Shown here in pieces: positions 18,691 through 60,876 of a stretch of 64,000 nt of DNA. The notes under the pieces are model-generated. The model was given only the letters and a program-made list of their open reading frames with translations, was not told the DNA's origin and did no database searches. The position numbers and the translations under genes were made by a program. The stretch comes from Lacibacter luteus. GTDB taxonomy: Bacteria; Bacteroidota; Bacteroidia; Chitinophagales; Chitinophagaceae. The stretch spans positions 1-64,000 of the forward strand of contig NZ_SDHW01000007.1 of the NCBI RefSeq assembly GCF_004118265.1, in the 5' to 3' direction. The first letter of the stretch is position 1. Each line of letters starts with the position of its first letter.

Positions 18691-18950
18691 TCTCTCACAG
18701 ATTACTCAGATTAGCACAGAAAAATCCGTGAACATCCGTGAAATCTGCGAGCATGGAATAGAAATGTTGATTGGTTATTTGAATAGCTCTTACAGATTAC
18801 GCAGATTAGCACAGAATTTTCTGTGAACATCCGTGAAATCTGCGAGCAAGGAATAGAAATGTTGATTGGTTATTTGAATAGCTCTCACAGTTTACACAGA
18901 TTCGGACAGAAAATTCTGTGATCATTAGTGTTATCGGTGAGCAAAAAATA
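18661..18950. repeat. Tandem triplication of gene tail plus family A repeat
   Basis: A unit of 95-96 bp beginning AATAGAAAT(A/G)TTGATTGG recurs at 18661, 18757 and 18852. The first copy is the coding end (RNIDWLFE and stop) of the hydrolase gene; the next two carry the same tail as non-coding DNA. Each unit then contains a family A palindrome (CACAGATTA...ATCTGCGAG). The third right end GGTGAG lies 14 nt before the GH28 start. Confidence 0.9.
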
Positions 18951-18955
18951 AATAA

Positions 18956-20503: not shown

Positions 20504-20509
20504 TGGGTT

Positions 20510-20570
20510 GCTCACAGATGACACAGATGATCACAGATTTTTTTCTGTGTTAATCCGTGTAATCAGTGAG
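20510..20570. repeat. Family A palindromic repeat, copy 5
   Basis: GCTCACAGATGACACAGATGATCACAGATT pairs imperfectly with TCTGTGTTAATCCGTGTAATCAGTGAG. It starts 6 bp after the GH28 stop and ends 67 nt before the GH95 start. Confidence 0.85.
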
Positions 20571-20637
20571 AAAAAAAGATGAATAGAATTGTTGCAGTAC
20601 AAGAGTGCGACGCAACAGAAGCTTAATAGAAATTCAA

Positions 20638-26968: not shown

Positions 26969-26972
26969 TATT

Positions 26973-27006
26973 TGAACCACAAAGACACAGAGAACACAAA
27001 GCAACA
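26973..27006. repeat. Family B half repeat, copy 2
   Basis: GAACCACAAAGACACAGAGAACACAAAG follows the GH2-malectin stop codon by 6 bp; only the left arm is visible. Confidence 0.7.
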
Positions 27007-27069
27007 CTAAGAGATCAAGTTGATTGAACTAAATGAGATTGCTTGACATGTCAGGGCTGTGAGTAGCTT

Positions 27070-30935: not shown

Positions 30936-30994
30936 GGATGAATTAAAACCTATCGTCTTCCAGTCTTCCCGGCTAACTAAAAAACATAGGCAAA

Positions 30995-31981
30995 ATGCAA
31001 TACAGAACATTAGGTAAAACAGGGTTTAATATTTCAGCTATCAGTCTTGGTACATGGCAGGTGGGAGGTAAGTGGGGCAGTGCATTCGATGAAAAAAATG
31101 CAGATGCTATTTTAAATACTGCAGTTGATAACGGCGTCAACTTTATTGATACTGCAGATGTGTACAGCGATGGTGAAAGTGAAAAAGCCATTGGCCGTTT
31201 TCTGAAAACAAGAAAAGAAAAGCTATTTGTCGCTACAAAGTGTGGTCGACAAATTCAGCCGCATGTCAACGAAGGTTATACTCCGGCAGTTTTAAGAAAG
31301 TATGTAGAAGATAGTTTAACTCGCTTGCAGGTGGAAACAATTGATCTCATTCAATTGCATTGCCCGCCAACAGCAGTTTTCTATCGTCCTGAAATATTTG
31401 GTTTGTTTGATGATTTGAAGAAAGAAGGAAAGATTCAACACTTAGGTGTAAGCGTTGAGAAAGTGGAAGAAGCATTAAAGGCAATTGAGTTTGAGAATGT
31501 AACAACGGTGCAGATCATCTTCAATATGTTTCGCCAGCGCCCGGCAGAATTATTTTTTGAACAGGCGAAAAAGAAAAACATTGGTGTGATTGTTCGTGTG
31601 CCATTGGCGAGTGGATTGTTGACAGGTCATTACTCAGCACAAACAGTTTTTGAAACTGGAGATCATCGTCAGTTTAATCGCAATGGCGAATCATTTGATA
31701 AAGGCGAAACTTTTTCAGGCATTGATTACGCCACAGGTTTACAGGCAGTGGAAGAATTGAAACAAATTGTTCCTGCGGGAAAATCATTAGCTGCAATGGC
31801 GTTGAAATGGATTCTGGATTTCGATGCAGTGAGTACGGTTATTCCCGGAGCTTCAAAACCCGAACAGGTAACCCGCAACTTGGAAGCATTGAAGGAGCAA
31901 TCGCTCAGCAGTGAGCAGTTGCAACAGGTGCAGGCTGTGTATGAAAAATATATCAAGCAGGCTGTGCATCATTTGTGGTAA
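30995..31981 (+). CDS. Aldo/keto reductase
   Basis: A 328-residue NAD(P)H-dependent oxidoreductase. The catalytic tetrad is complete: Asp52 and Tyr57 (FIDTADVY), Lys82 (VATKCG) and His122 (IDLIQLHCP). The C-terminal cofactor-binding segment STVIPGASKPEQVTRN is typical. Some homologs act as L-fucose or L-rhamnose dehydrogenases, forming lactones, and this would pair with the lactonase at 11534. It is flanked on both sides by family B repeats. Specificity is inference. Confidence 0.88.
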   Translation: MQYRTLGKTGFNISAISLGTWQVGGKWGSAFDEKNADAILNTAVDNGVNFIDTADVYSDGESEKAIGRFLKTRKEKLFVATKCGRQIQPHVNEGYTPAVLRKYVEDSLTRLQVETIDLIQLHCPPTAVFYRPEIFGLFDDLKKEGKIQHLGVSVEKVEEALKAIEFENVTTVQIIFNMFRQRPAELFFEQAKKKNIGVIVRVPLASGLLTGHYSAQTVFETGDHRQFNRNGESFDKGETFSGIDYATGLQAVEELKQIVPAGKSLAAMALKWILDFDAVSTVIPGASKPEQVTRNLEALKEQSLSSEQLQQVQAVYEKYIKQAVHHLW

Positions 31982-31987
31982 AGGAGG

Positions 31988-32079
31988 GAACCACAAAGAC
32001 GCAATGGCAGAAAGATGCACAAAGAAAAACGTCTTCTAATCGTTAAAAGAAACTGCCACGGAGGCACGGAAAACACGGA
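31988..32079. repeat. Family B repeat, copy 4 (degenerate)
   Basis: GAACCACAAAGACGCAATGGCAGAAAGATGCACAAAG followed by CTGCCACGGAGGCACGGAAAACACGG; two left-arm-type halves in the gap between the reductase and GH2 genes, ending a few bases before ATG 32085. Confidence 0.55.
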
Positions 32080-32084
32080 ACAAA

Positions 32085-34505
32085 ATGAAGTCGACTAAAA
32101 ATAAATTACCCATTGTTGCTTTACTGTTGTTGAGTTTAATTTCAACAGCGCAGGTTCGTTCTATTGCAGATTTCAACAACGGATGGAAATTCTTTTTAGG
32201 CAATGATAGTCTTGCAAGCAATGCAAACTATAACGATACGAAATGGAGAAGTTTAAACCTGCCGCACGACTGGAGTATTGAAAGCAATTTTTCTTCTTCA
32301 TTTCCTGCAACCAATCAGGGCGGTGCATTGCCCGGTGGTATTGGCTGGTATCGTAAAACATTTACCGTTCCTGCAACATCAAAGAACAAAGTCACACGTA
32401 TTGAGTTTGATGGTGTGTATAAAAACAGCGAAGTATGGATCAACGGACATTATCTTGGTAAGCGCCCCTATGGCTATATTAATTTCTCTTATGATCTCAC
32501 TCCACATTTAAATTATGGTAAGCCGAATGTGATTGCGGTAAAAGTGGATAACAGTCTGCAGCCCGATTCAAGATGGTACAGCGGCAGTGGTATTTACAGG
32601 GATGTGAAGTTGGTGACTACAAACAATGTGGCTATTGCTGAGGCAGGCGTATTCATTGCAACTCCAATCGTCAGCAAAAACAAAGCAACAGTTTCCATTC
32701 AATACAACGTAGCAAACACAGGTACGCAGAAAGAAATTGTAAATCTTTACACAGATTTGTATGATGCAGCAGGAAAAAAAATCGCTACATCAAAACAAGT
32801 TGTATTACGCACAATACCTGTCGGAGGCTATGCGTATGCAGATCAAATACAAATTGCAGCACCCATACTTTGGTCAACAGCAAAACCTTACTTGTACAAA
32901 GCTGTTACAAAAATTGAACGCAATGGTCAACTCATCGATGAAGTAAAAACAAACTTCGGTATCCGTTCCTTCCGTTTCGATGCCGCAAATGGTTTCTTTC
33001 TCAACAATGAGCCATTAAAAATACAAGGCGTTTGTATGCATCACGATCTGGGGGCATTGGGAGCAGCATATAATCATGCCGCAGCAAAACGCCAGTTGAA
33101 CATATTAAAAGAGATGGGCGTGAATGCTATCCGTTTTTCACACAATCCGCCTGCCGCAGCTATTCTTGATCTATGTGATGAAATGGGATTCCTGGTGCAA
33201 GTAGAAGCATTCGACATGTGGAAGAAAAAGAAAAACAAGTTTGATTACAATCTCTTCTTCGACGAATGGCATGCAAGGGATATACAGGCAATGGTATTGC
33301 GTGACCGAAATCATCCTTCTGTTTTTATGTGGAGCATCGGTAATGAAATAAGAGAACAATTCGACAGCACAGGCACTACAATCGCCAAACGTTTGGTTGA
33401 ACTGGTAAAAGCATTGGATACAACACGACCTGTAACCTGCGCCTTAACCGAAAATTTCCCGGAGAAAAACTTTATCTGGAAATCAGGCGCATTGGATATA
33501 CTCGGCTTCAACTATAAGTTGTACGATTATGCTGATTTGCCCAACCGTTTTCCCGGTCAGTCATTTGTTGCAACAGAAACAGCATCGGCCTTAGCAACTC
33601 GTGGTTCGTACGATATGCCGAGCGACAGCAACCGCCTTTGGCCACCCGATGGTAAAACGCCAACAGTAAAAGGCAATGCAGATATGAGTGTATCTGCCTA
33701 CGATCATGTTTATGCATACTGGGGTTCATCGCATGAAGCGGCAATGGTAGCAGTGAATAAATACAAATACATGTCGGGTATGTTTGTGTGGAGTGGTTTC
33801 GATTTTATTGGTGAACCTGTGCCTTATGCATGGCCGGCCCGCAGTTCGTATTATGGTATTGTTGATCTTGCCGGGTTTCCTAAAGATGTTTTTTATCTTT
33901 ATCAAAGCGAATGGACAACGAAACCGATGCTTCATTTATTTCCGCATTGGAACTGGAACAAAGGCGATACGGTGGATGTATGGGCTTATTATAACAATGC
34001 CGATGAAGTAGAATTATTCCTCAATGGAAAATCATTAGGCAGCAAATCGAAAACAACGGATGTCTTACATGTCAAGTGGCGTGTGCCTTACGAAGCGGGA
34101 ATTATAAAAGCTGTTTCAAAAAAGAACGGCAGGGTAGTACTCTCAAAAGAAATTAAAACTGCAGCATCCCTTTCGAAAATACTTGTAACTGCTGATCGTA
34201 CTAAACTCAAAGCCAATGGAAAAGACCTTTCGTTTCTTACAATAAAACTGGTTGACAAAGATGGAAATCTTGTTCCCGATGCAGACCGTTTTGTTGATGT
34301 TATTGTAAAAGGGGCGGGAGCTTTAGCCGGAACTGACAATGGTTTCCCGGCCGATACGGTTTCATTGAAAAGTTCGCAACGTAAAACCTGGAAAGGGATG
34401 GCTTTAGCAATTGTGCAGACCAATGTAAAAAAGGGAAATATTACCGTTGTTGTAAAGTCTGCCGGTTTAAAAGACGTAATCATTACCCTTGAAACCGAAG
34501 AGTAG
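32085..34505 (+). CDS. Secreted GH2 beta-galactosidase-like enzyme
   Basis: An 806-residue GH2 protein with a normal signal peptide (LLLLSLISTAQ). Sugar-binding domain: WRSLNLPHDWSIES, GIGWYRKTF, EVWINGHYLGKRPYGY. TIM barrel: GVCMHHDLGALG, IRFSHNPPAA, acid/base Glu421 in SIGNEI and nucleophile Glu498 in VATETAS. C-terminal DUF4982-like and Ig domains follow (VEVWAYYNNADEVELFLNG-type segment, VDVWAYYN here). It fits Bacteroidota beta-galactosidases trimming galactan or RG side chains; alpha-L-arabinopyranosidase or beta-glucuronidase activity cannot be excluded. Confidence 0.9.
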   Translation: MKSTKNKLPIVALLLLSLISTAQVRSIADFNNGWKFFLGNDSLASNANYNDTKWRSLNLPHDWSIESNFSSSFPATNQGGALPGGIGWYRKTFTVPATSKNKVTRIEFDGVYKNSEVWINGHYLGKRPYGYINFSYDLTPHLNYGKPNVIAVKVDNSLQPDSRWYSGSGIYRDVKLVTTNNVAIAEAGVFIATPIVSKNKATVSIQYNVANTGTQKEIVNLYTDLYDAAGKKIATSKQVVLRTIPVGGYAYADQIQIAAPILWSTAKPYLYKAVTKIERNGQLIDEVKTNFGIRSFRFDAANGFFLNNEPLKIQGVCMHHDLGALGAAYNHAAAKRQLNILKEMGVNAIRFSHNPPAAAILDLCDEMGFLVQVEAFDMWKKKKNKFDYNLFFDEWHARDIQAMVLRDRNHPSVFMWSIGNEIREQFDSTGTTIAKRLVELVKALDTTRPVTCALTENFPEKNFIWKSGALDILGFNYKLYDYADLPNRFPGQSFVATETASALATRGSYDMPSDSNRLWPPDGKTPTVKGNADMSVSAYDHVYAYWGSSHEAAMVAVNKYKYMSGMFVWSGFDFIGEPVPYAWPARSSYYGIVDLAGFPKDVFYLYQSEWTTKPMLHLFPHWNWNKGDTVDVWAYYNNADEVELFLNGKSLGSKSKTTDVLHVKWRVPYEAGIIKAVSKKNGRVVLSKEIKTAASLSKILVTADRTKLKANGKDLSFLTIKLVDKDGNLVPDADRFVDVIVKGAGALAGTDNGFPADTVSLKSSQRKTWKGMALAIVQTNVKKGNITVVVKSAGLKDVIITLETEE

Positions 34506-41578: not shown

Positions 41579-41745
41579 AGAGCAGGTTTCATCGAAATAA
41601 ATCGTCTTAATCAGTATACATTCAATACATAAAATAACCATTCAAAAAAAGCTTGCAGTAATCGTTGATGATTGTTTCAGATAACAGAAGTTGCAAATTG
41701 TTTTGGTTATTAGGTGTGCAAATAAAAACAATAAGAATTCAACAC

Positions 41746-43395
41746 ATGAAATTCGTTCGTTACAAACTTTACAGTTTAGCAGTTTGTTTGGCAGTAACAG
41801 GCAGTGCATTTGCTCAGTATCCTGATATTCCAAAAGATGTTCAGCAAAAATCAGATTCATTAATGCGTGCCGCAAATAGACACTCCGACTCGGCATGGCA
41901 GGCAGCATGGCCAATTATTCAGCAGCAAGCGAAAGAAGGGAAACCATACATTCCATGGGCTTCACGTTACGATGAGTTGCCGCAATCTGATGTACTGGCA
42001 TTTCCCGGAGCAGAAGGTGGTGGTCGTTACAGCTTTGGTGGTCGTGGTGGTAAAGTATTTGTTGTAACAAACTTAAATGATGATGGTCCCGGTAGTTTAC
42101 GTTGGGCTTGTGAACAAGGTGGTGCAAGAATTATTGTGTTCAATGTGGCAGGTATCATTCGTTTACAAACACCGCTAATCATTCGTGCACCTTACATCAC
42201 CATTGCAGGACAAACAGCACCGGGTGATGGTGTGTGTATTGCAGGTGAAAGCGTATGGATCAACACACATGATGTGATCATCCGTTACATGCGTTTCCGC
42301 CGTGGTGAAACATGGGTTGGTCGCCGTGATGATGCGATTGGGGGAAACCCAATTGGTAATATTATTATCGATCACGTAAGTGCAACATGGGGATTGGATG
42401 AAAACATGAGCATGTATCGCCACATGTATAACGATAGTACAGGTAAAATTGAAGATAAATTCGGTACCGTAAACATCACCATTCAGAACTCCATTTTTGG
42501 TGAGGCGTTGGATACATGGAATCATGCATTCGGCAGTACACTTGGTGGTGAGAACTGTACATTTATGCGTAACCTTTGGGCAAACAATGCTGGTCGTAAC
42601 CCATCAGTTGGCTGGAATGGTATTTTCAACTTTGCCAACAACGTTGTGTACAACTGGGTACACCGTAGCATCGATGGTGGCGATTACCGTGCACAATACA
42701 ATATCATCAACAACTATTTTAAACCGGGCCCGGCAACACCCAAAACGCCGATCGCTTATCGTATTCTTAAACCGGAAAGCGGAAGAAGTAAACTCAAAGA
42801 AAAATATTATGGCCGGGCATTTGTAAACGGAAATATTGTTGAAGGTTATCCTGAAGTAACAAAAGATAACTGGAATGGTGGTGTACAGATTGAAGAAGAA
42901 AAAAATGCAGGCGACTACAAAGATTATATAAAAGTAAATAAGCCGTTGCCGATGTCGCCGATCACGATTCTTCCTGCAGAGGACGCAAGAAAATATGTAT
43001 TGGCCAACGCAGGAGCAACATTACCTAAGCGTGATCCGGTTGATACCCGCATTGTAAAAGAAGCAACAACGGGAAAGGTTGATTACAATCCAAATGTGAA
43101 ATTACCCGAAACGCAATTCAAGCATCGTCGTATGCCAATTGATTCATACAAAATAGGCATCATTACAGATCCTGCACAGGTAGGTGGTTATCCTGAATAC
43201 AAAGGAACGCCTTATGTTGACAGTGATAATGATGGTATGCCTGATGCGTATGAAGTGAAAGTTGGTTTGAATCCAAAAGATGCATCTGATTCTGGCAAAA
43301 TAGCAAAGAACGGTTACAGTAATATTGAGAATTATCTCAACAGCGTAGTGGATGTGAAAAAAGTAACTCCATCAACAACTACTTCTGTGAAGTAA
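41746..43395 (+). CDS. Secreted pectate lyase, family PL1 (copy 2)
   Basis: A 549-residue protein with signal peptide ending SAFAQ. A ~70-residue helical N-terminal extension (PDIPKDVQQKSDSLM, AKEGKPYIPWASRYDELPQ) precedes the PL1 beta-helix: FPGAEGGGRYSFGGRGGKV, VTNLNDDGPGSLRWACEQGG, TIAGQTAPGDGVCIAGES, IIDHVSATWGLDENMSMYRH. The end carries DSDNDGMPDAYEVKVGLNP and SNIENYLNSVV, a short calcium-binding-like tail. I use ATG 41746; the in-frame ATG at 41665 would place 27 residues before the signal peptide. It is a close paralog of the next gene and begins a new unit after the SusCD terminator. Confidence 0.92.
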   Translation: MKFVRYKLYSLAVCLAVTGSAFAQYPDIPKDVQQKSDSLMRAANRHSDSAWQAAWPIIQQQAKEGKPYIPWASRYDELPQSDVLAFPGAEGGGRYSFGGRGGKVFVVTNLNDDGPGSLRWACEQGGARIIVFNVAGIIRLQTPLIIRAPYITIAGQTAPGDGVCIAGESVWINTHDVIIRYMRFRRGETWVGRRDDAIGGNPIGNIIIDHVSATWGLDENMSMYRHMYNDSTGKIEDKFGTVNITIQNSIFGEALDTWNHAFGSTLGGENCTFMRNLWANNAGRNPSVGWNGIFNFANNVVYNWVHRSIDGGDYRAQYNIINNYFKPGPATPKTPIAYRILKPESGRSKLKEKYYGRAFVNGNIVEGYPEVTKDNWNGGVQIEEEKNAGDYKDYIKVNKPLPMSPITILPAEDARKYVLANAGATLPKRDPVDTRIVKEATTGKVDYNPNVKLPETQFKHRRMPIDSYKIGIITDPAQVGGYPEYKGTPYVDSDNDGMPDAYEVKVGLNPKDASDSGKIAKNGYSNIENYLNSVVDVKKVTPSTTTSVK

Positions 43396-43400
43396 TATAA

Positions 43401-43437
43401 AAATGAAAAGCCAATGTATATTGGCTTTTCATTTTTT
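43401..43437 (+). terminator. Terminator between the tandem pectate lyases
   Basis: A perfect 15-bp inverted repeat (43401-43415 with 43420-43434, loop GTAT) ending in a T-run to 43437. It lies 6 bp after the stop codon. Confidence 0.85.
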
Positions 43438-43511
43438 GAATGGCTATATGTACATCTGTTCATTTTTAACAAGTGAGGAAAACCTGATTGTTTAAAACGA
43501 AAGTGTTTCAA

Positions 43512-45146
43512 ATGAAAAAACATATTCTATCACTGATGATTGCCGGGATATCTATTGCAACAACGGCATTAGCACAGTACCCTGTTATTCCACAACGTGT
43601 AGAAGATTCAGCAAATGCTGTTTACAGTCAGTATCAGCAACGTTCGAAAGAACAATGGAAAAAAGCAATGCTCGTTGTAGAGGCAGAAGCAAAGAATGGT
43701 AAACCATATATTCCCTGGGCAGCAAAGCCGGAAGATCTTCCACAAGCTTCTATACCTGCATTTCCGGGTGCAGAAGGTGGTGGTGCATTCAGCTTTGGTG
43801 GTCGTGGCGGTAAAGTGTATGTGGTTACTAATTTGAATGATGATGGCGAAGGAAGTTTTCGTTGGGCATGTGAGCAGGGTGGTGCACGTGTTGTTGTGTT
43901 TAACGTAGCAGGTATCATTCGTTTAAAAAGCCCGGTTAACATCAATGCTCCTTATATTACTATTGCCGGACAAACAGCTCCCGGTGATGGTGTGTGTATT
44001 GCTGGTGAAAGTGTGTTGATCAATACGCATGATGTTGTGATTCGTTATATGCGTTTCCGCAGAGGTGAAACAGAAGTCACTCGCCGTGATGATGCAATAG
44101 GTGGCAACGGTGTTGGAAATATTATTATCGATCATGTTTCTGCAAGCTGGGGATTAGATGAGAACATGAGCATGTATCGCCATGTGTACGACAGAGGTGG
44201 TGAAAAACAAGAGAAACTTCCTACAGTGAACATCACAATTCAGAATTCAATTTTCTCGGAAGCACTGGATACGTATAATCATTCATTCGGTAGCACTATT
44301 GGCGGATTAAACAGTACGTTCATGCGTAACCTTTGGGCCAATAACATCAGCCGCAATCCTTCTATTGGTATGTATGGCGACTTTGGTTTTGTGAACAATG
44401 TTATTTTCAACTGGTGGAACCGCAGTGCAGATGGTGGCGATAACAATTCCCGTTTTCAATTCATCAATAATTATTACAAGCCTGGTCCAATGACTCCGGC
44501 TGGTAAACCAATCAGCTATCGCATTTTGAAACCAGAGGCTGGTCGTGATAAAGCAAATGCCAATGTATATGGCAAGGCTTATGTTACAGGAAATATTGTG
44601 GAAGGCAACGAACGTGTAACAAAAGACAACTGGGATGGTGGCGTACAGGTTGAAGATAATGATGAAGGGGTTAAATATCTGAAGGATATTCGTGTAAACG
44701 AACCTTTCCCAATGGCGAAGGTTGTGATCATTCCAACCAAAGATGCGTACAATTATGTATTGGCAAATGTTGGCGCCACATTGCCTAAAAGAGATCCGGT
44801 TGATACACGTATCATTGAAACAGTAACAACAGGAAAGATCACTTACAAAGAAGGCGGGTTAACAGACATTGGCAAACAGTACATCAAAAGAAGATTGCCT
44901 TCTGATTCTTATAAGCAAGGTATTATTACACATCCATCGCAGGTGGGTGGTTATCCTGAATACAAAGGCACACCATACAAAGACAGTGATAACGATGGTA
45001 TGCCTGATGCATACGAAACGAAGAATGGATTGAATGCAAAAGATGCATCTGATGCGGGTAAGATCACAAAGAACGGCTACAGTAATATTGAAAACTATCT
45101 TAACAGCGTAGTGGACGAAAAAACGGTGAAGCCGGCACAGAAATAA
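43512..45146 (+). CDS. Secreted pectate lyase, family PL1 (copy 3)
   Basis: A 544-residue tandem paralog of copy 2, with the same N-terminal extension, PL1 beta-helix (FPGAEGGGAFSFGGRGGKV, TIAGQTAPGDGVCIAGES, IIDHVSASWGLDENMS) and DSDNDGMPDAYETKNGLN tail. Signal peptide ends TALAQ. The variable middle (PVTRRDD and the loop after MYRHVYD) differs from copy 2, which may alter substrate range or methyl-ester tolerance. ATG 43512 follows an A-rich leader; a TTG at 43488 is less likely. The beta-helix gene follows after 49 bp. Confidence 0.92.
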   Translation: MKKHILSLMIAGISIATTALAQYPVIPQRVEDSANAVYSQYQQRSKEQWKKAMLVVEAEAKNGKPYIPWAAKPEDLPQASIPAFPGAEGGGAFSFGGRGGKVYVVTNLNDDGEGSFRWACEQGGARVVVFNVAGIIRLKSPVNINAPYITIAGQTAPGDGVCIAGESVLINTHDVVIRYMRFRRGETEVTRRDDAIGGNGVGNIIIDHVSASWGLDENMSMYRHVYDRGGEKQEKLPTVNITIQNSIFSEALDTYNHSFGSTIGGLNSTFMRNLWANNISRNPSIGMYGDFGFVNNVIFNWWNRSADGGDNNSRFQFINNYYKPGPMTPAGKPISYRILKPEAGRDKANANVYGKAYVTGNIVEGNERVTKDNWDGGVQVEDNDEGVKYLKDIRVNEPFPMAKVVIIPTKDAYNYVLANVGATLPKRDPVDTRIIETVTTGKITYKEGGLTDIGKQYIKRRLPSDSYKQGIITHPSQVGGYPEYKGTPYKDSDNDGMPDAYETKNGLNAKDASDAGKITKNGYSNIENYLNSVVDEKTVKPAQK

Positions 45147-49795: not shown

Positions 49796-50719
49796 ATGCA
49801 TAGGAAATTATTAATTATTAATTGTTCATTATTAATTCTGCTGGCTTCTTGCAGTCGCAGGGCTTACCTGTTCACATCCTTTCACGAACCGGCCGATGCA
49901 GGTTTGCGGATGTTGTATAGTTATGATGGTAGAAACTGGACAGATCTTGATACAGTTCTTCTACAACCGAAAGTGGGTAACCAGAAAGTAATGCGTGATC
50001 CAAGCATGGTACAAGGGCCAGATGGTACATTTCATTTGGTGTGGACGAGTAGCTGGCGTGGCGATCTTGGTTTTGGTTATGCTTCGTCAAAAGATTTATT
50101 CAACTGGAGTGAACAGCAGTTTATTCCGGTGATGAAGAATGAGCCAACAACAGTCAATACATGGGCGCCTGAATTATTTTATGATGATGAACAAAAGCAA
50201 TACATCATTATCTGGGCAAGTTGTATTCCCGGCAGGTTTGAAAGAGGGATTGAAGAAGACAGCAACAATCATCGCATGTATGTGACCACGACACCTGATT
50301 TTAAAAGCTTCAGTGAAACAAAATTTTTTCTTGATCCGAAGTTCAGTGTAATTGATGCGGTAATTGTAAAACGGAAGAAAGATGATTATGTGTTGGTGTT
50401 GAAAGATAACACAAGACCGGAGCGAAATATTAAAGTAGCATTTGGTACATCGCCACTTGGACCATGGACAAATATTTCAAAACCATTCTCGGATAATTTT
50501 ACAGAAGGACCATCAGTAGTGAAGTTGAAAGATGAATGGCTGATCTATTTTGATTCGTACCGAAAGAAAATTTATGAAGCAGTTGCAACAAAAGACTTTG
50601 TGAAGTTTGAAAATGTAACGACAAAAGTAAAAGTACCGGAAGGGCATAAACACGGGACAATTGTAACAGTTAAAAAAAGAATTGCTCACAGATTGATCAG
50701 ATTAACACAGAAAAAATAA
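49796..50719 (+). CDS. GH43-like five-bladed propeller glycosidase, lipoprotein
   Basis: A 307-residue lipoprotein with lipobox LASC (Cys19). The three GH43 acidic residues are visible: Asp in VMRDPSMVQ, Asp in SVIDAVIV and Glu in TEGPSVVKL, with NTWAPELFYDD between them. Family members remove arabinofuranose, xylose or galactofuranose-like units. The signal sequence is encoded by an A/T repeat (TTATTAATTATTAATTG), and the last residues (AHRLIRLTQKK) by the left arm of repeat A6. The gene starts 3 bp after the apiosidase gene. Confidence 0.87.
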   Translation: MHRKLLIINCSLLILLASCSRRAYLFTSFHEPADAGLRMLYSYDGRNWTDLDTVLLQPKVGNQKVMRDPSMVQGPDGTFHLVWTSSWRGDLGFGYASSKDLFNWSEQQFIPVMKNEPTTVNTWAPELFYDDEQKQYIIIWASCIPGRFERGIEEDSNNHRMYVTTTPDFKSFSETKFFLDPKFSVIDAVIVKRKKDDYVLVLKDNTRPERNIKVAFGTSPLGPWTNISKPFSDNFTEGPSVVKLKDEWLIYFDSYRKKIYEAVATKDFVKFENVTTKVKVPEGHKHGTIVTVKKRIAHRLIRLTQKK

Positions 50720-50747
50720 ATCAGTGTACATCCGTGTGATCTGTGAG
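50684..50747. repeat. Family A palindromic repeat, copy 6 (encodes a C-terminus)
   Basis: GCTCACAGATTGATCAGATTAACACAG at the left, ATCCGTGTGATCTGTGAG at the right. The left arm is translated as the last 11 residues of the GH43 gene; the right end is 11 nt from ATG 50759. Confidence 0.87.
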
Positions 50748-50758
50748 AGAAAATAAAG

Positions 50759-52576
50759 ATGAAAAGAATTACTGTCATATTATTATTGATCTGTGCGAAC
50801 ATTTCGGCCCAGGACACAGTTCGCTACACAGGCACAACTTTATCCAACGTTGATTACCATCACGGACAATTATCGCCGGCAGTTGGTGTACACAATATTC
50901 AAACCATGCGAGCCAACCGTGCAGATACAGGCGCCACTTCATGGACGTACAATCATGCACCCATGCTGGCTTACTGGAACAACACATTTTATCTTGAATA
51001 CTTAAGCGATCCTGTTGGTGAGCATATTCCTCCGGGTCAAACATTATTACAATCATCAAAAGATGGTTACAACTGGAATTCACCCATTGTGATCTTTCCT
51101 CCATACAAAGTGCCCGATGGTTTTGTAAAACCGGGCAAGACAGACACAGCAAAGAATGTATACGCAGTGATGCATCAGCGGATGGGTTTTTACACATCAA
51201 AGTCGAAGCGTTTGTTTGCACTGGCGTTTTATGGAATCGTCATTGGGCAGAAAGATGATCCCAACGATGGTAACGGTATTGGTCGGGCGATACGTGAAAT
51301 AAAAGCAGATGGTAGTTTTGGCCCAATCCATTTTCTGCGGTATAATCATTCGTTCAATGAAAAGAATACTGCTTATCCGTTTTACAAATCATCAAAAGAC
51401 AAAGGCTTTGTTGCTGCATGTGATGAAATACTCAGCACTCCTTTGTTAATGATGCAGACGGTAGAAGAAGGAGATCGCAATGATCCGTTGATTCCTTTGC
51501 AGAAAGATTTCAAAGCATTCAACTATTATCATTTGCCTAATGGAAATGTAGTGGCACTCTGGAAATATGCATTGACAACAATCAGCAAAGACGAAGGCAA
51601 GACCTGGCAATACAATCCCACAAGAGCACCGGGCTTTGTCAACGCCAATGCCAAGATCTGGGGACAACGCACAACTGATGGCAAATATGCAACAGTATAC
51701 AATCCTTCTGAATTTCGCTGGCCTCTGGCTGTTAGTGTAAGTGATGATGGATTAAATTATAAAAACATGTTGCTGGTGAATGGCGAGATCACTTCCATGC
51801 GTTATGGTGGTGCGTATAAAAGTTATGGTCCACAGTATGTACGTGGCATCCAGGAAATGGATGGCAAACCAACCGATAATAATATGTGGGTGACCTACAG
51901 TGTGAACAAAGAAGATATGTGGGTGAGCCGTGTGCCTGTGCCGATCAAAGGAAAAGTAACAACGCCTGTAAACGATGTGTTCAATAATTTACCTGCAGGA
52001 AAAGAATTGAATGAATGGAATATTTACAGTCCGCTTTGGTGCAGGGTGAATATAGAAACACTCAACAATCAGAAAGTAGTGGCCTTGCACGATAGCGATC
52101 CGTTTGATTATGCGAAACTGGAACGCATTTTTCCTGAATCAAAAAATGTAACGGTTGAGTTTACCGTAAGTGCACAACAAACAAATGCCGGTAGTCTTGA
52201 AATTGAATTGCTTGATAAAAAGGGAACAGCCACACTTCGTTTGATGCTCGATTCAACCGGAAGCATTTTAACCAAACAAGGCTATCGCAACAAGAGCCTG
52301 GGTAAATACAAAGCAGGTGAACAACTCAATATCAAAATTGAATTAAATACCGCTACACGTTTTTATACCGTAACGATCAATAATGATAAACCGAATCTGA
52401 ATGTATTTTTCCAGCCGGTGGAATCAGTCGAACGATTATCATTCCGTACGGGAGCAGTGCGTCGCTTTCCTGATGCAGACACACCAACAGACCAGGATTA
52501 TGATCTGCCCGGCGCTGATGCCAAAGCAAAAGAAGCGGTTTATTATATTCATTCGGTAAAAACAAGAGGACTGTAA
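50759..52576 (+). CDS. Secreted beta-propeller protein of sialidase-like fold, unassigned
   Basis: A 605-residue protein with a short signal peptide (LLLICANISAQ). Residues 30-400 look like a six-bladed propeller: SWTYNHAPMLAYWNNTFYLEYLSDPVG, LLQSSKDGYNWNSP, TISKDEGKTWQY (an Asp-box). The last ~190 residues are a LamG-like beta-sandwich (NVTVEFTVSAQQTNAGSLEIELLDKKG). The family is often labelled exo-alpha-sialidase, but the Arg triad of true sialidases is not evident, and the context is pectin. I would not name a substrate. The stop overlaps the next start by one base (TAATG). Confidence 0.7.
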   Translation: MKRITVILLLICANISAQDTVRYTGTTLSNVDYHHGQLSPAVGVHNIQTMRANRADTGATSWTYNHAPMLAYWNNTFYLEYLSDPVGEHIPPGQTLLQSSKDGYNWNSPIVIFPPYKVPDGFVKPGKTDTAKNVYAVMHQRMGFYTSKSKRLFALAFYGIVIGQKDDPNDGNGIGRAIREIKADGSFGPIHFLRYNHSFNEKNTAYPFYKSSKDKGFVAACDEILSTPLLMMQTVEEGDRNDPLIPLQKDFKAFNYYHLPNGNVVALWKYALTTISKDEGKTWQYNPTRAPGFVNANAKIWGQRTTDGKYATVYNPSEFRWPLAVSVSDDGLNYKNMLLVNGEITSMRYGGAYKSYGPQYVRGIQEMDGKPTDNNMWVTYSVNKEDMWVSRVPVPIKGKVTTPVNDVFNNLPAGKELNEWNIYSPLWCRVNIETLNNQKVVALHDSDPFDYAKLERIFPESKNVTVEFTVSAQQTNAGSLEIELLDKKGTATLRLMLDSTGSILTKQGYRNKSLGKYKAGEQLNIKIELNTATRFYTVTINNDKPNLNVFFQPVESVERLSFRTGAVRRFPDADTPTDQDYDLPGADAKAKEAVYYIHSVKTRGL

Positions 52577-54174
52577 TGAATAAGATAGTAAGGACATTAA
52601 AGTTTTATTTGAACCACAAAAACGCAAAGGCTCAAAGTTTCACAAAGCCTTTGTGTTTCTTCGTGCTCTCTGTGACTTTGTGGTTCAATTCGTTTTCTCA
52701 ACAAAAGCCACTTGTATTAAAACAGGATCAGTTCAAACATTATGTAGATTATTTCAACAAAATGGAAGAACCGAATATTGAGCAGGCCATCCCCAATGCA
52801 AAAAGCTGGGAGTGGATGAAGAAAAATATTCCGTTGTTTGAATGTCCGCAACAGAATTTTGAAGAGATCTTTTATTATCGTTGGTGGACATTGCGTAAAC
52901 ACATCAAGAAAACAGAGAAAGGATTTGTATTTACCGAGTTTTTGATCCAACGTAATTATGCCGATAAATACAATCTTATCTCCAGCGGTCTTGGTCATCA
53001 TATTTACGAAAGCCGTTGGCTCCATGATAAAACTTACATGGATAACAACCTGCATGTATGGTATCGTGGCAATGATGGACAGCCAATGAAAAAACTCAGA
53101 GCTTACAGTGGATGGAATGAAGATGCTGTCTACAATCGTTTTCTTGTGAATGGAGATAAGAATTTTGTGATTGACTTATTGCCGGATATGAAAGCCAATT
53201 ATGCAGGATGGGAACAGGAAAAGAAAGCTGCAAACGGGTTATTCTGGCAATACGATGTGCGTGATGCAATGGAAGAAACAATCAGTGGTGGAAGAACAGA
53301 AAAGAATCCACGTCCTTCAATCAATGGTTATATGTTTGGGAATGCGAAAGCATTGGCTGCCATTGCACAACTGAACAAAGAAAATACGGAAGCAGCGTTA
53401 TACAACCGCAAAGCAGATTCTATTAAACAACTCTCTCAACAATTGATGTGGCATCCGCAGCACCAGTTTTTTGAAGTAAAGAAAGAGAAAGGCGATACAT
53501 TGTCGAATGTAAAAGAAGAGATCGGTTTTATTCCCTGGTATTTCAATATGCCCGATGCAACGTATAGCGTGGCATGGAGAAGCTTGATGGATACAAAAAC
53601 TTTCTGTGCACCTTTTGGTATTACAACTGCTGATCGTAGTCATCCTGAATTTCGTACACATGGTTGTTGCAAATGTGAGTGGGATGGTGCAGTGTGGCCG
53701 TTTGCAACAGCACAAACATTAACCGGTATGGCGAACCTGTTGAACAATTATCAACAGGATTATGTGGCCGATAGTAATTATTTCAGCTTGCTCAATACGT
53801 ATGTTGAATCGCAATATTATCGTGGCCGTCCGTATATTGGCGAATACCTTGATGAAAAAACTGGATTTTGGTTAAAGGGTGATGAAGAGCGTAGCCGCTA
53901 TTACAATCATTCAACATTTAATGATCTCATCATTAGTGGACTTGTTGGTCTGCGTCCGAGAGCGGATAATACAATTGAAGTAAATCCTTTACTGCCTGAT
54001 AATAAATGGAATTGGTTTTGTCTGGATAATGTGTTGTATCATGGCAAGATCGTTACCATCATCTGGGATAAAGACGGAACAAAATATAAAAAAGGAACTG
54101 GCTTGAGTGTGTGGGTGAATGGAAAGAAAGTGGCTTCGTCGGTTAAGCTGGAAAAAATCACTGGAAAATTATGA
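52576..54174 (+). CDS. Secreted (alpha/alpha)6-barrel glycosidase-like protein; signal peptide from repeat B
   Basis: A 532-residue protein coupled to the previous gene by TAATG. Residues ~12-43 are encoded by repeat B5, giving the signal peptide PLCFFVLSVTLWFNSFSQ. The mature part has the repeating helical pattern of an (alpha/alpha)6 barrel: YYRWWTLRKHI, RWLHDKTYMDNNL, GWNEDAVYNRFL, CEWDGAVWPFATAQTLTGMANLL, YNHSTFNDLIISGLVGLRPR. This resembles GH63/MGH1-like or GH142-like enzymes. Specificity is unknown; beta-L-arabinofuranosidase would suit the context. Confidence 0.75.
   Translation: MNKIVRTLKFYLNHKNAKAQSFTKPLCFFVLSVTLWFNSFSQQKPLVLKQDQFKHYVDYFNKMEEPNIEQAIPNAKSWEWMKKNIPLFECPQQNFEEIFYYRWWTLRKHIKKTEKGFVFTEFLIQRNYADKYNLISSGLGHHIYESRWLHDKTYMDNNLHVWYRGNDGQPMKKLRAYSGWNEDAVYNRFLVNGDKNFVIDLLPDMKANYAGWEQEKKAANGLFWQYDVRDAMEETISGGRTEKNPRPSINGYMFGNAKALAAIAQLNKENTEAALYNRKADSIKQLSQQLMWHPQHQFFEVKKEKGDTLSNVKEEIGFIPWYFNMPDATYSVAWRSLMDTKTFCAPFGITTADRSHPEFRTHGCCKCEWDGAVWPFATAQTLTGMANLLNNYQQDYVADSNYFSLLNTYVESQYYRGRPYIGEYLDEKTGFWLKGDEERSRYYNHSTFNDLIISGLVGLRPRADNTIEVNPLLPDNKWNWFCLDNVLYHGKIVTIIWDKDGTKYKKGTGLSVWVNGKKVASSVKLEKITGKL
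52608..52689. repeat. Family B repeat, copy 5 (coding)
   Basis: The best-preserved copy: TTGAACCACAAA (52609-52620) pairs perfectly with TTTGTGGTTCAA (52677-52688), and inner CGCAAAGG/CCTTTGTG also pair. All of it is read as codons of the (alpha/alpha)6 protein. Confidence 0.92.
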
Positions 54175-56999
54175 TTGTTTTTTTTGCCACAAAGACGCAA
54201 AGACATAAAGCAGCACAAAGAAACTCCTTTGTGAATCTCTGTGTCCTTTGTGTCTCCGTGGTTCTCTTCTTTCCCTTGTTTTCTTTTTCGCAACAAACAC
54301 AAAAAATCTATCTCTCCGGTACTGGCAGCGACCAAACTGTACAATGGGATTTCTTTTGCACCGGCGGCATGAATGCCAACAAGTGGACAAAGATCGCTGT
54401 GCCAAGTTGCTGGGAATTACAAGGCTTTGGTAAATACGATTATGGTTTTGCAAAAGACAGTGTGCGTGGAAAAGAAAAGGGTTTATACAAACATCGTTTC
54501 AATGCGCCTGCCAACTGGAAAGGTAAAGTCATCAATATCGTGTTTGAAGGCGTGATGACGGATGCAGAAGTAAAAGTAAATGGTAAGTCGGCGGGAGCAA
54601 TTCATCAGGGAGCGTTCTATGCTTTTAAATACGACATCAGTAAACTACTCAACTACGGAAAAGAAAATACGCTTGAAGTAACTGTTGCCAAACATTCAGC
54701 CAATCAATCGGTGAATGAAGCAGAACGTAAAGCTGACTTCTGGATATTTGGCGGCATCTTCCGTCCGGTTTGGTTGGAAGTATTACCAACAGTGCATATT
54801 GAACAGGTGGCAATTGATGCAAAAGTAAATGGAAACTTTACTGCAAAAATTCAAACCAATGCAGCGCCTGAATCAGTAACACTTCAACTATATTCTTCAC
54901 TTACTGAAAAGTTTGGCAACCCGATTGCCATGCAGTGGGATAAAGCAAGCAATGGAATTACTGTAAAGAATCAATTCGCATCGCCAAAGCAATGGAATGC
55001 AGAAGCCCCAATTTTATACAAAGCTGTTATTACCATTTATAAGAATGGAAAGGAGCTGCACACCGTTACAAAACAATTCGGTTTCCGCACAGTGGAAGTA
55101 AAACAGCGTGATGGTATTTATGTAAACGGTGTGAAGGTGAAAATGAAAGGTGTGAATCGTCATGCCTTTCGTCCGGAGACAGGGAGAACAACTAGTAAAC
55201 AGATCAGTATTGAAGATGTATTGCTGATAAAAGAAATGAACATGAATGCTGTGCGGATGAGTCATTATCCGCCCGATGATCATTTTTTGGATGTGTGTGA
55301 TTCGCTTGGTTTGTTTGTAATGGATGAACTCGCTGGCTGGCATGGCAACTACGATGAGACGACAGGAAAGAAGTTGTTGAAAGAAATGATCGATCATGAT
55401 GTGAATCATCCTTCTATTATTATCTGGGCAAACGGCAACGAAGGCGGTCACAATTTCGCACTCGATAAATACTTCACCGAATTTGATATTCAGCAACGAC
55501 CGGTTGTGCATCCCTGGCAATTGTTTGGCGGTTTTGATACCCAGCATTACCGTGAATACAATTATGGCATCGGTAATTATGAGAATGGAAAAGACATTGT
55601 AATGCCAACTGAATTTTTACACGGACAGTTTGATGGTGGTCATGGTGCAGGTATTGAAGACTATTGGGAAAAGATGTGGCACAACCCTTTAAGTGCAGGA
55701 GGTTTTCTCTGGGACTTTGCAGACAATGCTGTTGTAAGAAAAGATAAGAACGATTCGTTGGATACCGATAAGCATCGGGCAGCAGATGGTATTGTTGGTC
55801 CGCATCACGAAAAGGAAGCAAGCTTTTATACCATTAAAGAAGTTTGGAGCCCGGTATTTTTTGAACGCAGAGAAATTGCTGAAGGTTTTGATGGGAAACT
55901 CAACATTGAGAACCGTTATCATTACACAAATACAAAAGAATGTTCTTTCAGTTGGAAGTTGAAACGTTTTGATGTAACCACTTCCAAAGAAACAGAAGGC
56001 AAAGCAACTGCTCCCGATATTCAACCCGGCGCAAAAGGAACTGTACAAATTCCGTTACCTGCTGACTGGAAAAATTATGATGTGCTGTATGTAACGGTGA
56101 AAGACCGTTATCAAAAAGAATTGTTTACCTGGAGTTTCCCCATCAGTAGTCCTGCAACAACAGGCGCAAGAATGATTGTAAAAGAAGGAAACAATCCAAT
56201 CAATACTTCAGAAAAAGATTCATTGCTCACAGTTGCAGTAAAAGATGTAGCGGTTGTATTGAATAAAAATAACGGCTTACTTGTTTCGGTGAAGAATAGT
56301 AAAGGTGAATTACCGTTTAACAACGGTCCCGTTTTACAAGATGGTGTAAATAATTTCAAATCTTTTAAACAGTATAAAGAAGGAAACAATCTTGTATTGG
56401 AATCTTCTTTCAACCAGAAAGAAAGTTACAATACACTCAAGTGGACGATCTATCCTTCAGGTTGGGTGCAGTTGCAGGTGAATTATTTTCCTGCTGCTTA
56501 CTTCACCAATTTTGCAGGCATCAATTTTTCTTTCCCTGAAAAAGAAATTCAATCAGTAACCTACATGGGCGATGGTCCTTATCGTGTATGGAAAAACCGT
56601 TTGAAAGGAAACCAGTTTGGCGTGTGGAGTAAAACGTACAACAATACCGAAACAGGTGAGGCGCCGTGGATCTATCCTGAGTTCAAAGGGTATCATTCAA
56701 ATTTCTATGGTGGACACTTCTTCACCAAAACAAACCGTTTCACTGTTGTAACAGAAAACGAAGGATTGTTCCTGCGACTGTTTACACCTGCCTGGAAAAC
56801 TGATCAGTGGCATAATTATGAACCGCTGTTTCCAACAGGTGATATTTCTTTTATGCAGGGCATCAGCAGCATCGGCAGTAAAACGCAACGCAACGAAACA
56901 ACAGGCCCCATGGGCAGTAAGAATATTTTTTACGATTACGAAAAAGATCCGTCAAGGGCTTTACACATCAACTTATACTTTAACTTCTCTGCACAGTAA
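54171..56999 (+). CDS. Secreted GH2-family glycosidase; signal peptide from repeat B
   Basis: A 942-residue GH2 protein whose ATG overlaps the previous stop (ATGA). Residues 5-33 are translated from repeat B6 and the signal peptide is LCVLCVSVVLFFPLFSFSQ; GTG 54231 inside the repeat is an alternative start. The mature enzyme has the sugar-binding domain (WTKIAVPSCWELQGFG, IFGGIFRPVWLEV), Ig domain, and barrel with GVNRHAF, VRMSHYPPD, acid/base Glu424 (ANGNEGG) and nucleophile Glu481 (MPTEFLHG). C-terminal DUF4981 and beta-galactosidase small-chain-like domains follow. It is likely a beta-galactosidase or related exo-enzyme. The GH78 fusion gene begins 1 bp after its stop. Confidence 0.9.
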   Translation: MIVFFATKTQRHKAAQRNSFVNLCVLCVSVVLFFPLFSFSQQTQKIYLSGTGSDQTVQWDFFCTGGMNANKWTKIAVPSCWELQGFGKYDYGFAKDSVRGKEKGLYKHRFNAPANWKGKVINIVFEGVMTDAEVKVNGKSAGAIHQGAFYAFKYDISKLLNYGKENTLEVTVAKHSANQSVNEAERKADFWIFGGIFRPVWLEVLPTVHIEQVAIDAKVNGNFTAKIQTNAAPESVTLQLYSSLTEKFGNPIAMQWDKASNGITVKNQFASPKQWNAEAPILYKAVITIYKNGKELHTVTKQFGFRTVEVKQRDGIYVNGVKVKMKGVNRHAFRPETGRTTSKQISIEDVLLIKEMNMNAVRMSHYPPDDHFLDVCDSLGLFVMDELAGWHGNYDETTGKKLLKEMIDHDVNHPSIIIWANGNEGGHNFALDKYFTEFDIQQRPVVHPWQLFGGFDTQHYREYNYGIGNYENGKDIVMPTEFLHGQFDGGHGAGIEDYWEKMWHNPLSAGGFLWDFADNAVVRKDKNDSLDTDKHRAADGIVGPHHEKEASFYTIKEVWSPVFFERREIAEGFDGKLNIENRYHYTNTKECSFSWKLKRFDVTTSKETEGKATAPDIQPGAKGTVQIPLPADWKNYDVLYVTVKDRYQKELFTWSFPISSPATTGARMIVKEGNNPINTSEKDSLLTVAVKDVAVVLNKNNGLLVSVKNSKGELPFNNGPVLQDGVNNFKSFKQYKEGNNLVLESSFNQKESYNTLKWTIYPSGWVQLQVNYFPAAYFTNFAGINFSFPEKEIQSVTYMGDGPYRVWKNRLKGNQFGVWSKTYNNTETGEAPWIYPEFKGYHSNFYGGHFFTKTNRFTVVTENEGLFLRLFTPAWKTDQWHNYEPLFPTGDISFMQGISSIGSKTQRNETTGPMGSKNIFYDYEKDPSRALHINLYFNFSAQ
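54186..54265. repeat. Family B repeat, copy 6 (coding)
   Basis: GCCACAAAGACGCAAAGACATAAAG at the left pairs with CTTTGTGTCTCCGTGGTTC at the right. Read as codons 6-32 of the GH2 gene at 54171, in a frame shifted by one relative to copies 1 and 5. Confidence 0.9.
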
Positions 57000-60000: not shown

Positions 60001-60792
60001 GCACCGAATGGTGAGTTGTTATTGTTTTATAAAATAGGCCCCAACGTTGCGGGATGGACAGGCTGGATGAAACGCAGCAAAGACAACGGACACACCTGGA
60101 GCGAACGGGAAGCATTGCCGCAAGGATTTTTAGGTCCTATCAAAAACAAACCGGAACTGATCAACGGTGTGTTGTATTGCCCAAGCAGTACAGAAGTAGG
60201 TGGATGGAAAGCACATATCGAATTCACAAGCGATAACGGTCGCACATGGACGAAGACAGGCCCTATCAACGATCCGAAAATTTTGCAGGCCATTCAGCCA
60301 AGTATTTTAAAATATGCAGATGGTCGTTTGCAGATACTTTGTCGCAGCCGTAATCACTCACTCAACGAAAGCTGGAGCAGTGATGGCGGTAAAACTTGGA
60401 GCACCATGCAGGCATCGCCGTTACCAAATAATAATTCAGGAACAGATGCGGTAACATTGAAAGATGGAAGACATTTGCTGGTGTACAATCATAATCTACC
60501 TAATTCGTCGTGGGTGGGTGGTAAAGGTCCACGTACACCGTTGAATGTAGCTGTAACAAAAGATGGTAAAGTGTGGAGTGCTGCATTGATACTGGAAGAT
60601 TCGCCTATCAGTCAGTATTCTTATCCATCGGTGATACAAACAAAAGATGGACTGGTGCATATTGTTTATACATGGCGAAGAGAGAAAGTGAAACATGTGG
60701 TGGTTGATCCAAGCAAACTGGAGTTGAAAGAAATTGTGAATAAGCAATGGCCGGGAGTGAAAGCGAATGAAGGAAAAACAACGGATGATTAA
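57001..60792 (+). CDS. GH78 alpha-L-rhamnosidase fused to sialidase-fold propeller
   Basis: A 1263-residue two-enzyme fusion with signal peptide ending QLSAQ. Residues ~20-905 are a complete GH78: VTNLRCEMLLNPLGIETKQPRLSW, ILDMGQNFAG, the acid region DCPQRNERQPWLGD, and Glu771 in TTIWELWNG. Residues ~915-1263 are a BNR/sialidase-type propeller with FPESHAATIEE, AAWFGGTKEG and three Asp-boxes (SKDNGHTWS, TSDNGRTWT, SSDGGKTWS), similar to the BNR_2 family. The frame runs through without stop or frameshift. I start at ATG 57001; the frame is open to 56818 inside the GH2 gene, but a signal peptide fits only here. Likely acts on adjoining linkages of a rhamnose-containing side chain. Confidence 0.9.
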   Translation: MKKLITILVLLVSIQQLSAQVTVTNLRCEMLLNPLGIETKQPRLSWQLQSNQRNVVQTSYQVLVSSTAQNLQQNKGDVWNSGNINSNQSLHVQYKGAELKPGKTYFWKVLIQTNKGKATVTQTAFFSTGLTNDLWKAKWIGYDRASEWDSVTQWSRLSARYLRKEFQSAATVKRATIYLSGLGMYELYINGKKIGDQVLAPNPTDYRKTYFYNTHDVTQQIKAGKNAVATVLGNGRFFTMRQNYKTHKHNTFGMPKLLLQLEIEYTDGTSKTIVSDESWKLNVDGPIRSNNEYDGEEYDARKEFIGWTNAGFNDTKWMQPELVEAPTGKLVAQMSQPMKVMQTIKPVSIKKTAGGKYILDMGQNFAGWIKLQNINGKKGEKVTLRFAESLQSNGEIFVANLRDAKVTNIYTLKGTGNEVWQPSFVYNGFRYVEVSTFPGTPTINQFEGKLVYDALETTGSFQTANATLNRIYQNAWWGIASNYKGMPVDCPQRNERQPWLGDRTVGSQGESYVFNNATLYAKWMQDIEDSQTDEGSIPDVAPAFWNYYSDDVTWPAAYFFVTNNLYNQFGDVTPIQKHYPSMKKWMMYMKSKYMKNYIITRDKYGDWCVPPESLNLIHAKDSNRLTDGKLIATAYYYKLLSYMQRFANITNNKEDANYYGLLSDSIRTAFQQTFYNPKLKQYSNNTVTANLLPLYFGICPDSLRGPVFDKIRIKVHVENHGHISTGLIGSQWIMRGLTEYGYADMAYIMASNKTYPSWGYMAENGATTIWELWNGNTADPGMNSQNHVMLLGDLLTWFYENLAGIRTNKTDVAFKKIIMKPTIPAGLDFVKASYNSFHGLIKSEWKNSIEQFEWKISIPANTSATVYIPANSVEEITESGVAIANSKDIKFIKEDDGAVVLEIASGNYTFIRNKKFKKGIVKDEFIFERASFPESHAATIEETPEGLIAAWFGGTKEGNKDVCIWTSHYKNGKWTAPAKVADGVMNDTLRYSTYNPVLFYAPNGELLLFYKIGPNVAGWTGWMKRSKDNGHTWSEREALPQGFLGPIKNKPELINGVLYCPSSTEVGGWKAHIEFTSDNGRTWTKTGPINDPKILQAIQPSILKYADGRLQILCRSRNHSLNESWSSDGGKTWSTMQASPLPNNNSGTDAVTLKDGRHLLVYNHNLPNSSWVGGKGPRTPLNVAVTKDGKVWSAALILEDSPISQYSYPSVIQTKDGLVHIVYTWRREKVKHVVVDPSKLELKEIVNKQWPGVKANEGKTTDD

Positions 60793-60864
60793 TTGAACCA
60801 CAGAGGCACGGAGGCACAAAGCAATCACTAAGTTCTTTTCTCTGTGTCTTTGCGTCTCCGTGGT
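60793..60864. repeat. Family B repeat, copy 7
   Basis: TTGAACCACAGAGGCACGGAGGCACAAAG at the left pairs with CTGTGTCTTTGCGTCTCCGTGG at the right. It fills the gap between the GH78 fusion stop and the symporter ATG at 60877. Confidence 0.87.
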
Positions 60865-60876
60865 AAAAAGATAACG

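Follow-up and report, generated by a model that had tools for sequence, protein, structure and literature searches.

Palindromic mobile repeats at gene starts appear to be translated as export signals of several enzymes in Lacibacter luteus

We analyzed positions 1 to 64,000 (here, the window) of contig NZ_SDHW01000007.1 from the 5.07-Mb genome of Lacibacter luteus (GCF_004118265.1; referred to here as G000), in which copies of a dispersed palindrome, repeat B, occupy the first codons of enzyme genes. Open reading frames (ORFs) are named by their first position, and G, C, and L numbers denote genomes, contigs, and loci. Three genes of the window carry such copies:

52576 to 54174, + strand: MGH1-like glycoside hydrolase with a GH65 C-terminal domain (domain matches); its start overlaps the upstream stop codon (TAATG)
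52609 to 52688, + strand: palindromic repeat B, full length; in-frame n-region and h-region of the predicted signal peptide
54171 to 56999, + strand: GH2 enzyme (MIVFFATKTQRHKAAQRNSFVNLCVLCVSVVLFFPLFSFSQQ...); its start overlaps the stop codon of the previous gene (ATGA)
54182 to 54266, + strand: repeat B copy in the GTG-GTT frame; in-frame predicted signal peptide (covariance model, translation)
23405 to 26968, + strand: GH2/malectin-domain enzyme with a compound repeat at its N-terminus (domain matches)
23444 to 23564, + strand: compound repeat consisting of the CACGCAAAG palindrome and then the right half of B, frame LWFN (alignment, translation)

At the first of these genes, the TAA that ends the upstream ORF (50759 to 52576) overlaps the ATG that opens ORF 52576 (TAATG). 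The ORF boundaries confirm this overlap, which had been described in an earlier note on this DNA, as had the terminal arms of the repeat copy (TTGAACCACAAA and TTTGTGGTTCAA), which indeed pair over 12 bp. Also as described there, the palindrome is read through in frame; it is translated as the bracketed part of the N-terminus MNKIVRTLKFY[LNHKNAKAQSFTKPLCFFVLSVTLWF]NSFSQQKPLVLK (brackets, repeat copy), and NSFSQQ comes next. Folding of the copy as RNA gave −30.8 kcal/mol, which corresponds to a z score of −5.1 relative to dinucleotide-shuffled sequences. A covariance model trained on eight copies assigned it 84.9 bits (E, 1.3e-18), this sequence itself being part of the model. The copy at 54182 to 54266 scored higher (87.7 bits), so that by model score the copy in ORF 52576 is not, contrary to the earlier claim, the best-preserved palindrome of the window. 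It had also been counted as a second case of a repeat serving as a signal peptide; the case is real, but it is one of at least eight genes, and the adjacent ORF 54171 had been missed.

Genome-wide, repeat B was detected at no fewer than 22 separate sites, of which 13 fall into the 23- to 98-kb stretch of the window's contig. The copies are palindromes of about 60 to 115 nt with terminal inverted repeats, i.e., with the size and dispersal of miniature inverted-repeat transposable elements (MITEs). This count is a lower bound (150 of 608 first-look candidates were scored, and two rows with E of about 0.09 were left out). Seven of the 22 copies are read through near ORF starts, namely, in 23405 (GH2; signal peptide end, SSAQ), 52576 (MGH1-like; SFSQ), 54171 (GH2; SFSQ), 69480 (AP_endonuc_2 domain; SNAQ), 93037 (GH88; SFAQ), 94491 (GH2; TKAQ), and 97822 (GH130, with a match slightly under the cut-off; KSQ). 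All signal peptides described here are predicted from sequence, by reading and the Kyte-Doolittle scale; by these means only, the N-termini have the Sec layout of a positive n-region, a hydrophobic h-region, and a small-x-small end. On reading, all seven finish in c-regions resembling those of signal peptides. The start of 97822 is uncertain, a GTG further in being common to the congeners. An eighth gene (GH43; C11:527143), found by a peptide profile search, has the right arm alone (MTKLKFSFVILCVLCAFVVQTSSAQ). Among the weak rows of that search, the four that were read (C2:25042, C11:177499, C26:155217, and C27:21415) did not qualify as repeat-made signal peptides.

Over the eight genes, the right arm is read as TGG-TTC (LWFN) in three and as GTG-GTT (VV) in five. 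The proposal that one frame had been used twice holds for 52576 and 23405 (LWFNS in both) but not as a rule. The right-arm frame at 23405 is as proposed, although the copy itself has to be corrected to a compound of the CACGCAAAG palindrome and the right half of B. The same two parts adjoin in two signal peptides (window, 23444 to 23564; C26, 69555 to 69698), as if one palindrome had been inserted into another. A 68-aa ORF with a repeat-type signal peptide also lies at C26 82398 to 82482 of G000 (L033 and L034 area). A signal peptide of this type is continuous with an enzyme body in G013 (ORF 30985 to 33267 of a joined stretch); a similar body at 83966 to 86092 of G000 has no signal peptide, and ORF 82534 to 83901 lies between it and the signal peptide ORF.

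The composition of the arms offers a reason for this coding property. The left arm, CCACAAAGACGCAAAG, is rich in A and C, with codons for K, R, H, Q, T, and N, and the right arm, CTTTGTGTCTTTGTGG, is its complement, with codons for L, F, V, C, and S. Because basic and polar codons in the left arm correspond to hydrophobic codons in its complement, an open reading of B often gives an n-region and then an h-region, in either orientation. We translated in six frames 79 copies (at least 70 nt; 27 genomes) that are not read at gene starts and called a reading signal peptide-like if a net charge of at least +2 was followed by an 11-residue stretch with a mean hydropathy of at least 1.8. Of the 474 readings, 113 were open and 48 were signal peptide-like (10.1% of all readings; 42% of the open ones). 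The corresponding rates were 0.7% for dinucleotide shuffles (69/9,480), 1.6% for intergenic 82-mers from the same contig (93/6,000), and 0/42 for seven palindromes of a second family, family A. With hydropathy thresholds of 1.5 and 2.1, the copies reached 12.9 and 8.0%, versus 1.3 and 0.2% for the shuffles. Signal peptide-like sequences were possible in all three right-arm frames, with 10/30, 18/38, and 10/29 of the open readings (20 strand readings with no clear right end were omitted). The property is frequent but not certain, since three quarters of the readings contain a stop codon. The earlier note was right in substance, with partial support for its interpretation, and this property of complementary arms replaces the fixed frame that it had assumed.

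We compared the N-termini with those of orthologs from up to six congeners (the genus group includes Lacibacter cauensis). A profile match to B was present at the N-terminus in 6/6 orthologs of 94491, 5/6 of 97822, 5/7 of 52576 (G000, G002, G006, G010, and G013, with the G010 match covering the h-region only partly), and 4/7 of 54171 (G000, G003, G006, and G013). By eye only, a right-arm h-region was recognized for 52576 in G003 and G009 and, likewise by eye, in 6/6 orthologs of 69480. Five ortholog sets, aligned through their translations, require at least 66, 57, and 104 changes at codon positions 1, 2, and 3, respectively (P = 6e-5 for the position 3 excess); these sets were picked for B-like N-termini in one frame, omit G002, G009, and G010 for 54171, G002 for 97822, and G002, G006, and G010 for 52576, and contain changes that are not fully independent. 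Read-through, conservation among congeners, and codon periodicity thus support the view that the repeat supplies the predicted signal peptide.

These observations bear on the possibility that the copies are ordinary intergenic palindromes in an open frame upstream of the true starts, with the enzymes made from later starts. A later start is indeed likely for 88172 (in which MERILATYYIE follows), 60844, L039, and G020:L155, in which a plausible ATG follows the repeat and which we did not count as signal peptides. In contrast, the seven signal peptide ORFs have no in-frame ATG between the repeat and the part that they have in common with orthologs; initiation further downstream would therefore delete the signal peptide, and the repeat reading is conserved with changes favoring third codon positions. 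We regard later starts as a very unlikely explanation for these seven. It seems similarly improbable that the repeat is mainly an RNA hairpin controlling translation or processing of the operon mRNA, with the peptide as a tolerated by-product. Although the hairpin at 52609 to 52688 is strong, an excess of hairpin structure at the 52576 N-terminus was confined, among the genomes folded, to G000 (z, −4.4); the five congeners gave z values of −0.7 to +0.3 (mononucleotide shuffles) and yet keep a right-arm-like peptide. In addition, Rfam gave no match at E of ≤0.1 for positions 52000 to 54500 of the window.

At the orthologs of 54171, palindromes other than B take the same position. The signal peptides of G002 and G009 contain a ATTCACCATTCACTATTCAC-type arm, with the partner arm located before the start (34 and 27 nt); the ortholog in the outgroup G040 has this arm type, and no partner arm was found there. 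In a Chitinophagales metagenome-assembled genome (L258), the position is taken by a TTTTTACTTTTTACTTTTG palindrome, the 47-nt arms of which are complementary at 74%, Terrimonas pollutisoli (L255) has a B-like copy followed by a second hydrophobic stretch, and G010 has a similar-looking stretch. Three palindrome families are present at this one orthologous gene. Exact matches to an ATTCAC motif, counted against the reversed pattern with overlapping matches entered more than once, numbered 14 versus 0 in G009, 23 versus 0 in G040, and 7 versus 1 in G010, compared with 3 versus 0 in G000 and 1 versus 2 in G002. At 93037, the signal peptide is ordinary in G002, G006, G013, and G040 and B-made in G000 and G009. 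This distribution suggests one exchange of an ordinary signal peptide for a repeat-made one, with a polarity that rests mainly on the outgroup G040.

One old repeat-derived signal peptide cassette might instead have spread among neighboring genes by duplication or gene conversion, without repeated domestication. A module, SLVRSVRY(S/A)A, precedes B in both 93037 and the 82398 remnant, 23405 and 69480 have the CACGCAAAG-plus-half-B architecture in common, and the cases are clustered in one region, as such a spread would predict. However, two right-arm frames, differing n-regions, and differing insertion points are found, and 54171 orthologs elsewhere use other palindromes. We consider the cassette unlikely, though less so than later starts or an RNA role.

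Repeat B has a candidate coding partner in genes of the GxxExxY family (PF13366), a PDDEXK_3 family. Ten places with such genes have open frames, and all 10 listed exceed the Pfam cut-off; TIGR04256 matched 4/4 proteins tested. In the eight loci that were read, the GxxExxY gene lies between inverted arms that vary from copy to copy, e.g., B arms at L015, family A arms at L011, and arms of the 23444 CACGCAAAG palindrome at L013. Over 35 GxxExxY loci (four truncated loci were omitted), the median arm score was 21 within loci and 13 across loci, and near flanks exceeded far flanks for inverted arms in 33 loci (P = 5e-9). At the metH junction in 14 congeners, a GxxExxY gene together with arms of B or a related type is found at the stop codon in seven, and a gap of 58 to 92 nt is found in five; of the other two, G009 shows just a left arm and G008 contains 1,291 nt of unrelated sequence. 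A larger coding relative with the same ends, as known for MITEs, is seen both at L015 and in the metH comparison. B behaves as an arms-only form of the GxxExxY element, because similar arms flank GxxExxY genes and because of the presence and absence pattern at metH. By these comparisons, it is most likely a small palindromic mobile element, i.e., a MITE-like version, lacking the gene, of a larger element that carries a GxxExxY/PDDEXK_3 gene, and the GxxExxY nuclease may move it. An origin from repetitive extragenic palindromes (REPs) with their associated transposase (RAYT) was considered and rejected: on reading, the sole Y1_Tnp gene of the genome is flanked by another repeat, and the nearest listed B copy is about 1.5 kb off. 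Family A palindromes (CTCACAGATTACACAGATT...) occur in the window at 3674 to 4616, 18690 to 18976, 20507 to 20578, and 50681 to 50755; at 18655 to 18976, a 95-bp unit is repeated in tandem about three times, with a family A palindrome in each.

For comparison with the signal peptide copies, two further features of the window are as follows:

60793 to 60868, + strand: repeat B copy right after the stop codon at 60790 to 60792; not read as a signal peptide
26972 to 27011, − strand: half copy of B, between ORFs

We surveyed 140 places, in which the copies from relatives are high-scoring ones (a nonrandom sample) and the signal peptide cluster was chosen as the holder of these cases; the right-arm-only C11 gene and its G009 relative fall outside this survey. 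Sixty-two places were intergenic, 40 started within the first 100 codons, 26 were partial at the 5′ end, 11 were partial at the 3′ end, 1 was in a 3′ end, and none was internal. The outcome for the enrichment that the earlier note expected at 5′ gene ends and in secreted proteins is thus mixed, with many copies at 5′ ends but signal peptides in one cluster. In the syntenic cluster, 22 of 31 copies of at least 70 nt were in the 5′ class, 20 of them being signal peptides by reading (88195 and G009:66203 were not); outside it, 1/23 copies elsewhere in the genus and 5/53 in other genera were in this class, none as a signal peptide. Of the 112 copies that measure 60 nt or more, 94 have a stop codon facing them at a distance of up to 400 nt. 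This distance is 0 to 4 nt for 13 of them (P = 4e-4 versus 4.6% for control points). A further 12 overlap the stop codon and themselves provide it; for this class there is no matched control, as the TTGA at the arm end includes a stop. G006 and G013 have apparently empty sites at 88194 and 89527, suggesting insertion at gene junctions. At the junction of the 60793 to 60868 copy, G006 has a B copy and G009, G002, and G013 have other, partly palindromic sequence, suggesting a reusable landing site.

Taken together, mobile palindromes at gene starts appear, by sequence, to be translated as export signals of several enzymes. The explanation that we hold to be probable is that MITE-like B landed at packed junctions and was read as, and kept as, a signal peptide. 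B sits mostly at gene junctions, and in a packed operon, whose genes begin at the stop codon of the preceding gene or ahead of it, a junction copy would fall into the first codons of the downstream gene, i.e., its signal peptide region. An open reading of either orientation would often yield an n-region and then an h-region, and the host gene's own [A/S]xAQ-like end would remain downstream of the inserted copy. Insertions that preserve export could then become fixed, and the left arm and hairpin might later decay, with the right arm retained as the h-region. In this order of events, which we infer along with the reason for the copy positions, the N-termini would work as Sec signals.

Several results weigh against this explanation. 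Nearly all of the signal peptide cases lie within one syntenic region of about 75 kb, and signal peptide copies of at least 70 nt numbered 20/31 in the cluster versus 0/23 elsewhere in the genus and 0/53 in other genera. Secreted proteins are common in this region: a crude scale, by which ORF 69480 is missed, classes 37 of 60 ORFs as signal peptide-like. The expected enrichment in secreted proteins is thus borne out by 7/7 signal peptide-like ORFs but is only mildly unexpected against this local background (chance, about 0.03), and none of the surveyed copies outside the cluster gave a signal peptide. A family-wide rule was rejected, since the A3 peptide search of 147 family genomes matched ORFs of at least 300 aa in G000, G009, and G040 only (the scoring covered up to 51 candidates in each genome). 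Proximity to stop codons is limited to the genus (23/57 copies, with G000 at 7/18 and other congeners at 16/39, versus 2/37 in other genera [P = 0.5], orthologous copies being entered separately). All seven signal peptide copies lie more than 4 nt from any stop codon, at distances past the upstream stop of 5 nt (97822), 10 nt (54171), and 33 nt (52576) or more. A direct tie between stop codon closeness and the signal peptide cases is thus not borne out, and packed junctions can explain the signal peptide positions only hypothetically because no such copy is in the close class. On reading, no clear target-site duplication was seen at the empty sites of G006 and G013. The arm evidence is uneven: of the 35 GxxExxY loci, 18 score above the 95th percentile for cross-locus pairs (which include loci sharing an arm family), 13 beat every cross pair in row and column, and 5 score 14 or less, compared with a control median of 13. 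Finally, the order of the congeners conflicts between single-gene trees, which is why the polarity at 93037 rests on the outgroup. At one locus and in one genus, the phenomenon is strong; as a general process, it is unproven.

Elsewhere in the window (41665 to 45146), two neighboring ORFs (576 and 552 aa) have long stretches of 76 to 80% DNA identity, with a distant relative near 14652 to 16037.

Repeat B resembles MITEs as a dispersed short inverted-repeat element that has apparently empty sites and shares its ends with a larger relative, and it differs from them in that this relative carries a PDDEXK_3 (GxxExxY) gene, not a known transposase, and in that no clear target-site duplication was seen. 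It is like REP/RAYT systems in consisting of short intergenic bacterial palindromes, except that the Y1_Tnp gene here is flanked by another repeat. Rickettsia palindromic elements, located at various places within proteins, are likewise in-frame palindromes, whereas the B copies are N-terminal and used as predicted signal peptides. The Rickettsia elements are described as kept in frame within protein genes (PMC10969869, PMC2229807), and the main text of a 2024 MITE review that treats them does not contain "signal peptide" (PMC10969869). The closest precedent found is the Yersinia palindromic repeat YPAL/RU-2, a MITE-type palindrome that forms part of the predicted signal peptide of YPO1552, the homologs of which have other signal peptides (Delihas 2007, PMC2759123, PMC2229807). 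That case, as described, concerns one small putative exported protein, whereas in L. luteus at least eight genes of one genome are involved, and the observations extend to conservation in orthologs with codon periodicity, to more than one palindrome family at a single gene, and to a candidate partner gene. In titles and the beginnings of abstracts of the open-licence PMC literature, no palindrome-made signal peptide other than that of Delihas was found, and open-licence PMC text, so far as searched, yielded nothing tying GxxExxY or PDDEXK genes to inverted repeats, palindromes, or mobile elements.

More broadly, GxxExxY genes might mark a widespread class of mobile palindromic elements, the gene-less forms of which, with complementary arms for basic and then hydrophobic residues, would act as preformed export signals and be a continuing source of new signal peptides for secreted enzymes in Bacteroidota, one palindrome family succeeding another at a given gene; we advance this wider view tentatively and think it somewhat doubtful. 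To our knowledge, the origin and replacement of signal peptides are little documented. Here, one mobile family offers several examples, with ordinary and repeat-made states within one genus, and a simple reason for them, in that codons for basic residues become, when complemented, codons for hydrophobic ones. The findings also raise the testable idea that the GxxExxY family provides the gene carried by a mobile palindromic element.

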